Shown: one piece after another, positions 53,075-56,386 of the stretch
How positions within the stretch are numbered: the stretch's first letter is position 1
Layout of the letters: every line of letters begins with the position of its first letter
Assembly: GCA_020846875.1 (NCBI GenBank)
Contig: JADLDB010000016.1
Location: 1 to 64,000, forward strand
DNA from: Myxococcales bacterium
GTDB taxonomy: Bacteria > Myxococcota > Myxococcia > Myxococcales > Myxococcaceae
DNA: 64,000 bases
Direction: 5' to 3'
The notes under the pieces: model-generated
The model's database searches: none
The model's input: the letters and a program-made list of their open reading frames with translations, nothing else
What the model was told of the DNA's origin: nothing
Program-made: the position numbers and the translations under genes

Positions 53075-53542
53075 ATGCACCAGCGTCTGGACTACAAGGT
53101 CGCCTCGCCCGGCGCGTTCAAGGCGATGCTCGGCGTCGAACAGCAGGTTCACCAGAGCGGGCTGGAGGACTCGCTGCTCGAGCTGATCAAGACGCGCGCT
53201 TCCCAGCTCAACGGCTGCGCCTGGTGCCTGGACATGCACACCAAGGACGCCCGAGCGCGCGGGGAGACGGAGCAGCGCCTGTACCTGCTGTCGTCCTGGC
53301 GTGAGGCGCCGTGCTACAGCGAGCGCGAGCGCGCGGCGCTGGCCTGGACCGAGGCCGTCACGCGGATCGCCGAGGGTGGGGTGCCCGGTGAGCTGTACTC
53401 GGAGGTCCGGCGCCACTTCGACGAGAAGCAGTTGGTCGATCTAACCCTCGCGATCATCGCGATCAACGGCTGGAACCGGATGAACGTCGCCTTCCAGACC
53501 GAGGTCGGCAGCTACGTCAGCCCGCATGGGCCGAAGCGCTGA
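53075..53542 (+). CDS. AhpD-like / carboxymuconolactone decarboxylase family protein
   Basis: 155 aa. The redox-active C48-A-W-C51 with His 55 lies in SQLNGCAWCLDMHTKDAR. This is the alkylhydroperoxidase AhpD core, with the C-terminal helix LTLAIIAINGWNRMNVAF. It likely reduces peroxides or acts in a related thiol pathway. The partner reductase is not visible here. Confidence 0.88.
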   Translation: MHQRLDYKVASPGAFKAMLGVEQQVHQSGLEDSLLELIKTRASQLNGCAWCLDMHTKDARARGETEQRLYLLSSWREAPCYSERERAALAWTEAVTRIAEGGVPGELYSEVRRHFDEKQLVDLTLAIIAINGWNRMNVAFQTEVGSYVSPHGPKR

Positions 53543-54867: not shown

Positions 54868-54931
54868 GGGCACCAGAGCGCGCTCAGCCGCCGCCCGTTA
54901 TGGTGCTTTGACTCCGCACCAAAGAGGCGTG

Positions 54932-56386
54932 ATGCGCGCGAAGCAGGACTGGAGAGGTCTTCGGCTCTACACCATCGGCCACTCCACCCGTTCCCTCGAC
55001 GAGCTGATCGCCGCGCTGCGGGCGGCTGGCGTGACGGTCCTCGCCGACATCCGGACCATCCCGCGCTCCCGCCACAACCCGCAGTTCAACCGCGACGCGC
55101 TGCGCAAGGCGCTTCGATCCCGACGGATCCGCTACGTCCACCTCCCGGCGCTCGGCGGCCTGCGCCATGCGCGGCCGGACTCGCCCAACGCCGGGTGGCG
55201 CAACGCGAGCTTTCGCGGCTACGCCGACTACATGCAGACCGAGGAGTTCGCCTCAGGCCTCGACGAGCTGCGCGCGTCCGCGGCGGAGGGCACGGTGGCG
55301 TTGATGTGCGCGGAGGCCGTGCCATGGCGGTGCCACCGGTCGCTCGTCGCCGACGCGTTGACCGCGCGGGGCGCGCACGTCGAGCACCTCACGGGCGCCG
55401 GCCGCCCCAGGCCGCATCGACTCACGCCCTTCGCGCGAGTCGAGGGCGCGCAAGTCACCTACCCGTTCGATCCGTCCGGGAGCGGCCGGCTCGCGACTTC
55501 GGCTCCCTTTCACCTGGAGGCGACGGTGCGCGCGCTGCAGCGTCGCGCGGGGAACCTGGTCGATCTGTGGGAGCAGGGGAGGTACGTGAGGGTGCTCGGG
55601 GCGCGCACCGGCCTCGCGCTCCTGGAGGTGTCGAATCGAGGGACGATCGAGCGCCCCGACGTCCGGTACGCGGTGCTGCGTGGCGCCAGGGCGGGGACGC
55701 ACGAAGCGACGCTGAGGAGGATGCTTGGCCTCGACGTCGATCCCCGGCCTCTCCAGCGCGCCGCGGAGGCGGAGGCCCGTCTGGTGTCCACCGCGCGCGC
55801 GCTGCGCGGCATGCGGCCTCCCAGGTTCGCCGGGCTCTTCGATGCGTTCGCCAGCGTGGTGCCCTTTCAGCAGGTGAGCCTCGACGCCGGTGTGGCGATC
55901 GTCAACCGGCTGGTCGAGCGCTTCGGGCGGATCATCAAGCACGGCGGCCGGACGTTCCACGCCTTCCCCAGCGCCGAGGTGGTGGCGGGGGCGCGGGTCG
56001 ACAGCATCGCCCGCAGCGGCCTGAGCCACCGGAAGGCGGAGACGCTTCGCCGGATCGCGCGCGCCATCAGCACGGGAGAACTCACCGAGTCCCGGCTCGT
56101 CCACCTGGGAAACGAAGAGGCGATCCGCCTGCTGTGCGAGCTGCCCGGCATTGGGCCCTGGACCGCGACGGTGGTGCTGCTGCGAGGGCTGGGGCGGCTC
56201 GACGTCTTTCCTCCGGGGGATGTCGGGGTCGCGCGAGGCCTGGGCGCCTTGCTCCGCTTGCGGCCCGGCGCCTCGCACGAGCGCGCTGTCGAGCGCTTCG
56301 GTGACGTGCGCGGGTACCTGTACTTCCTCTCGCTCGGGGCGTCGCTCCTGGCCCGCGGCCTCGTTCACGCAGCGCCGGCGCCGTGA
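54932..56386 (+). CDS. DUF488 domain fused to AlkA-type 3-methyladenine DNA glycosylase
   Basis: 484 aa. Residues about 12-160 are DUF488: YTIGHSTRSLDEL, DIRTIPRSRHNPQFN, then MCAEAVPWRCHRSLVADAL. A short junction (about 165-195) leads to an AlkA-like glycosylase (about 195-484). This has the helix-hairpin-helix LPGIGPWTA at about 403 and a GDV segment with the candidate catalytic Asp 430. The glycosylase should remove alkylated bases. DUF488 has no established role. I chose ATG 54932, with AGAGG five bases ahead; GTG 54929 and TTG 54908 are alternatives. Confidence 0.88.
   Translation: MRAKQDWRGLRLYTIGHSTRSLDELIAALRAAGVTVLADIRTIPRSRHNPQFNRDALRKALRSRRIRYVHLPALGGLRHARPDSPNAGWRNASFRGYADYMQTEEFASGLDELRASAAEGTVALMCAEAVPWRCHRSLVADALTARGAHVEHLTGAGRPRPHRLTPFARVEGAQVTYPFDPSGSGRLATSAPFHLEATVRALQRRAGNLVDLWEQGRYVRVLGARTGLALLEVSNRGTIERPDVRYAVLRGARAGTHEATLRRMLGLDVDPRPLQRAAEAEARLVSTARALRGMRPPRFAGLFDAFASVVPFQQVSLDAGVAIVNRLVERFGRIIKHGGRTFHAFPSAEVVAGARVDSIARSGLSHRKAETLRRIARAISTGELTESRLVHLGNEEAIRLLCELPGIGPWTATVVLLRGLGRLDVFPPGDVGVARGLGALLRLRPGASHERAVERFGDVRGYLYFLSLGASLLARGLVHAAPAP

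Follow-up and report, generated by a model that had tools for sequence, protein, structure and literature searches.

Members of the DUF488 family (PF04343) occur in bacteria, archaea and phages; the family has no known function, and its proteins are normally stand-alone and about 170-200 aa long. In 2023, Burroughs and Aravind reportedly placed DUF488 in the rhodanese-phosphatase superfamily. For the AlkA-type DNA glycosylases, a catalytic role of Asp238 in AlkA has been described, and the A. fulgidus enzyme (AfAlkA) excises 1-methyladenine and 3-methylcytosine too (PMC4437013). In the window, by which we mean the whole 64,000-nucleotide stretch of Myxococcales bacterium DNA that was analysed, a DUF488 domain departs from the family norm in being fused to a glycosylase. 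The glycosylase is ordinary in type; its partner domain is unusual and conserved. The recurrent linkage of DUF488 to two unrelated superfamilies of DNA glycosylases gives a specific hypothesis that is cheap to test, namely that DUF488 deals with the products of monofunctional glycosylases. Our literature search returned no paper that mentions both DUF488 and a glycosylase; Burroughs and Aravind (2023), which lay outside that search, may describe part of the linkage.

Architecture of the fused gene

The features of the locus that are discussed below are as follows.

53075..53542, + strand: AhpD-like carboxymuconolactone decarboxylase (CMD) gene (Pfam CMD, E 2.8e-22)
54932..56386, + strand: fused gene for DUF488 and an AlkA-type DNA glycosylase, one intact open reading frame of 484 codons
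54962..55471, + strand: DUF488 domain, residues about 11-180 (Pfam match 54995-55360, residues 22-143, E 6e-37)
55307..55339, + strand: putative active-site loop CAEAVPWRCHR (C126, E128, C134, H135, R136), strand-loop-helix in models
55487..55825, + strand: AlkA_N domain, residues 186-298 (Pfam E 8.6e-8)
55865..56281, + strand: HhH-GPD glycosylase core, residues 312-450 (Pfam E 1.7e-11)
56144..56167, + strand: helix-hairpin-helix PGIGPWTA with Trp410, the Trp invariant in 22 family members
56219..56221, + strand: catalytic Asp430, equivalent of AlkA D238 (invariant column D247 of alignment A4)

The reading frame opens with an ATG at 54932, preceded a few bases 5' by AGAGG and with an in-frame TTG at 54908, and runs on the + strand without internal stops to the stop at 56386. 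Its product has a two-domain architecture, made up of three Pfam matches that all lie above their gathering cut-offs, and AlphaFold2 gave a confident two-domain model of the whole fusion (mean pLDDT 94.5, pTM 0.78). A preceding sequence-only reading had described the DUF488 N-terminus as intact and the glycosylase as keeping its helix-hairpin-helix and Asp. Both descriptions held: YTIGHST, DIRTIPRSR and MCAEAVPWRCHR are all present, and so are LPGIGPWTA and the Asp within FPPGDVG.

The N-terminal half scores 127.4 bits against PF04343 (gathering cut-off 22.2), a better match than that to DUF488-N3a (PF22751), where its 26.5 bits fall just under the cut-off of 27. In alignments of 44-47 DUF488 domains (A3/A5) a set of G, H, R, S, P, CAE and CHR residues is invariant, and the fused copies retain every one of them. 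A profile search returned no solved DUF488 structure, and the fold was considered from a domain-only AlphaFold2 model (pLDDT 92.7, pTM 0.88). In the models, C126 terminates the strand formed by residues 122-126, and the putative active-site loop sits between this beta strand and a helix. The closest folds are phosphatases of the PTP type (laforin, KAP, Sulfolobus PTP, PRL and TpbA), with Z of 7-8.6; diphthine synthase and tetrapyrrole methylases are matched in the same range, and a Z of about 8 can reflect a common arrangement or arise by chance. A Foldseek search with the DUF488 model gave no match at E below 0.001. The PTP and methylase matches fit an assignment to the rhodanese-phosphatase superfamily, and the modelled fold is probably PTP/rhodanese-like. 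DUF488 differs in the loop, where it has CAE..P..CHR and lacks the CX5R that true phosphatases carry.

For the C-terminal half, the HhH-GPD match (44.9 bits against a gathering cut-off of 26.2) and the AlkA_N match (32.8 against 26) cover a glycosylase whose best PDB matches, by both sequence and fold, are A. fulgidus AlkA (2jhj/2jhn), followed by MBOgg1, E. coli AlkA (1mpg) and OGG1. Likeness to AlkA and AfAlkA extends over the whole glycosylase half, comprising AlkA_N and HhH-GPD, the catalytic Asp and the Trp in the helix-hairpin-helix. The fusion differs from these enzymes in its additional N-terminal DUF488, in its sequence, which is 27% identical to that of AfAlkA when the folds are aligned, and in its score against the NCBIfam AlkA equivalog NF007641 (62.3 bits, under the cut-off of 229); going by these profiles, the half is AlkA-type and is not assigned as an AlkA orthologue. 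OGG1 is alike in the fold of this half, but the score against the Ogg family TIGR00588 is far under its cut-off (51.4 against 397.85 bits) and the fusion has a Trp and not the lyase Lys. Asp430 and the glycines of the helix-hairpin-helix are invariant in the 22 aligned family members, as is Trp410, which stands where bifunctional relatives such as Nth and Ogg have their lyase Lys. Since Trp occupies this position, the glycosylase is predicted to be monofunctional and to leave abasic sites, as UDGs do. Its substrates are probably alkylated or deaminated bases.

Recurrence and inheritance of the fusion

The same fused frame is present at 17 loci, the window included. The other 16 comprise L003-L015, which were found by tblastn with each half over related loci and derive from Nannocystis genomes, from Myxococcales, Deltaproteobacteria and Proteobacteria MAGs and from one MAG labelled Planctomycetaceae, and three genomes of a single genus in the window's own family, Myxococcaceae, all of which carry the fusion (G199, G200 and G202). 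One fused locus is on a complete chromosome, that of a Nannocystis (NZ_CP114040). Locus L083 (genome G056) also carries the fused gene, but since the trees show both of its domains to be identical with L011's, it was left out of the count. The fused gene of the MAG labelled Planctomycetaceae (L009) groups with Myxococcota-type copies, a placement that reflects transfer, mislabelling or contamination.

Within two genera dN/dS is below 1 for both halves, mostly 0.2-0.45, although for DUF488 the ratio is sometimes as high as 0.7-0.8 when closely related Nannocystis strains are compared, with few changes underlying it. These ratios indicate that purifying selection acts on both halves. The two parts are inherited together. 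Fused copies group together in the DUF488 tree and require a single change of state, on a branch without support; the split pairs of L021 and L089 lie within this group or next to it. Given the position of those pairs, a single origin of the fusion from an adjacent gene pair is most likely. Among the host's relatives included in the comparison, most are without this glycosylase family and many carry DUF488 as a stand-alone gene. Around the fused loci no conserved repair genes (ligase, Ku or AP endonuclease) were found; the neighbours are unrelated, which led us to reject the idea that the fused genes sit in a base-excision operon.

DUF488 genes beside glycosylase genes

The sequence-only reading had pointed to separate adjacent genes as a place to look, and such pairs do exist: archaea, Nitrospirota, Chloroflexota, Syntrophaceae and other groups have them, and both gene orders occur. 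DUF488 precedes the AlkA-type glycosylase gene in a Thermomicrobiales genome (L021) and, with a GTGA overlap, in a genome of the window's own order (L089). The glycosylase gene comes first in archaea (L034, L051, L161 and, in Methanoperedenaceae, L043) and in bacteria, namely Nitrospiraceae (L036), Syntrophaceae (L038), an Actinobacteria MAG (L041) and Chloroflexota (L139 and L188). Four of these glycosylase-first pairs (L034, L036, L041 and L043) share an ATGA overlap, which suggests translational coupling. On three Acidithiobacillus plasmids the gene order is DUF488-CMD-glycosylase. The glycosylase tree has two clades, one holding the fused, DUF488-first and lone genes and the other the glycosylase-first pairs; as the two arrangements fall in separate clades, the linkage spans two deep clades of the glycosylase.

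DUF488 is also found beside glycosylases of the UDG superfamily. On a Sphingobium plasmid, a UDG-family gene stops 10 bp ahead of DUF488. A UDG gene flanks DUF488 at L055, L056, L062 and L116, and Pfam UDG matches account for 6 of the 146 neighbours of stand-alone DUF488 genes. Two of eight Pseudomonadota loci, a sample not chosen for linkage, likewise have a UDG beside DUF488 (L153 and L154). Judged by its supported branches, the DUF488 tree requires at least three origins of this linkage. L070 was dropped as a UDG neighbour, its open reading frame having no Pfam UDG match. Where scored, the DUF488-linked UDGs (L153, L154, L055, L056, L062 and L116) lie far under the family-4 UDG and UdgX cut-offs, and the DUF488-adjacent subfamily looks uncharacterised.

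Of 201 Chloroflexota genomes, 17 carry the AlkA-type glycosylase, 30 carry DUF488 and 10 carry both; Fisher's test gives a p of 1.2e-5, and of 4.8e-5 minus the seed genome, values that overstate the strength of the association given the kinship of the genomes. In six of these ten, going by the listed positions, the two genes are no more than about 5.3 kb apart. In 297 Desulfobacterota genomes co-occurrence was not significant (p 0.31 minus the seed). When 61 DUF488 loci were taken without regard to linkage, an immediate glycosylase neighbour was seen at four, twice a UDG and twice an HhH-GPD protein; most DUF488 genes are in other contexts and lack such a neighbour. Eight genomes have a lone AlkA-type glycosylase gene; a DUF488 of this type is encoded elsewhere in four of them and is absent from the other four. 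Neither DUF488 nor the glycosylase needs the other half in every organism. The commonest neighbour of the stand-alone DUF488 genes at L024-L082 is a TfoX N-terminal domain (7 of 146 neighbours), and in a second sample the commonest immediate neighbour is the DNA primase large subunit (6 of 143 neighbours), at archaeal DUF488 loci among L161-L184.

Taken together, these gene arrangements give good support to a functional tie of DUF488 to the glycosylases of base excision. The sequence-only reading had drawn this link from the fusion, and that part of its claim stands, with the split operons in both orders and the UDG neighbours supporting it more strongly than the fusion does. Its further claim, which makes either nucleic-acid damage or the glycosylase itself the target of DUF488, goes beyond these observations and is a reasonable inference.

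Candidate roles for the DUF488 half

We consider the fusion to be best explained as a two-domain base-excision-repair enzyme. The glycosylase half would remove a damaged base, probably an alkylated or deaminated one, by monofunctional excision that leaves an abasic site, and DUF488, as a Cys-dependent enzyme of phosphatase/rhodanese type, would then act either on this site or on a DNA end of sugar-phosphate type derived from it, so that the fusion would couple excision to the next step. DUF488 is placed after excision mainly because its AlkA-type and UDG partners differ in fold and substrate and share the abasic site as their product. The proposed chemistry is drawn from the fold, the invariant residues and this shared product. 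We give a probability of about 0.4 to the reading that DUF488 is a Cys-dependent enzyme acting on the shared product and coupled to excision. Rather more doubtful is the wider proposal that DUF488 of this clade represents a new class of Cys-dependent enzyme (or a covalent shield) that acts on abasic sites or DNA ends and serves two unrelated superfamilies of monofunctional glycosylases, being here fused to one of them. Should DUF488 indeed process the products of monofunctional glycosylases, base excision repair in many prokaryotes would gain a step or enzyme so far unrecognised.

DUF488 could instead be a non-catalytic or regulatory accessory that recruits or tunes the glycosylase, through DNA binding or through redox or ligand sensing by its Cys pair. 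The invariant C126 and C134 could form a redox or metal site, and a regulator, fused or adjacent, would yield both gene orders just as well. Against this, the invariant residues cluster in a loop whose strand-loop-helix geometry is enzyme-like, and an allosteric partner specific to one protein would hardly be expected beside glycosylases of two unrelated folds; we regard an accessory role as fairly unlikely.

A further alternative is suggested by the CMD gene. In the window this gene is on the same strand as the fusion and 1.4 kb upstream of it, separated from it by an unannotated open reading frame and an MgtC-family gene; the genome has no further copy at E<=1e-30. Close homologues abut the AlkA-type glycosylase gene in Chloroflexota (L132, L133, L137, L142 and L148), and one lies between DUF488 and the glycosylase gene in the Acidithiobacillus plasmids; L112 is also among the loci with CMD near the glycosylase. 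These arrangements make CMD a possible third partner of DUF488 and the glycosylase. They would also be expected from a shared stress regulon, wherein DUF488 and the peroxidase-like CMD protein act on small molecules or proteins during alkyl or oxidative stress and the glycosylase is merely co-expressed. However, co-expression alone hardly explains a covalent fusion, and no CMD gene was found near the other fused loci within flanks of up to 5 kb, for which reason its proximity in the window may be chance. A regulon of this kind is an unlikely explanation overall.

DNA-end processing in conflict systems has reportedly been predicted for the DUF488 clade, and an anti-phage role can be envisaged in which the glycosylase attacks modified bases in phage DNA and DUF488 processes the ends. 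The resemblance of DUF488 to the PADLOC candidate families PDC-M45/M19 and the patchy distribution are consistent with such a role. At the fused loci themselves, no defence family recurs among 59 neighbours and the PADLOC matches are single, generic proteins such as kinases and sigma-54 activators; a defence island around these loci was rejected for want of a recurrent defence-gene neighbourhood. No relative of the fusion was found in the viral contigs searched, and phages hold only distant DUF488 proteins. We consider the anti-phage role highly improbable.

Lastly, a frameshift or assembly join of two genes, which the sequence-only reading had named as grounds for its own dismissal, is ruled out by the same frame at 16 other loci from independent assemblies, and with dN/dS below 1 in both halves the probability of an artefact or a neutral fusion is negligible.

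Two minor observations concern the window and its genome. A second, more distant HhH glycosylase is encoded in the same genome (G000), on contig 55. In the window, a short inverted repeat, TGGTGC-N9-GCACCA, lies at 54901-54921 between the MgtC-family gene and the fusion; it is possibly an operator or a terminator, or a chance occurrence.
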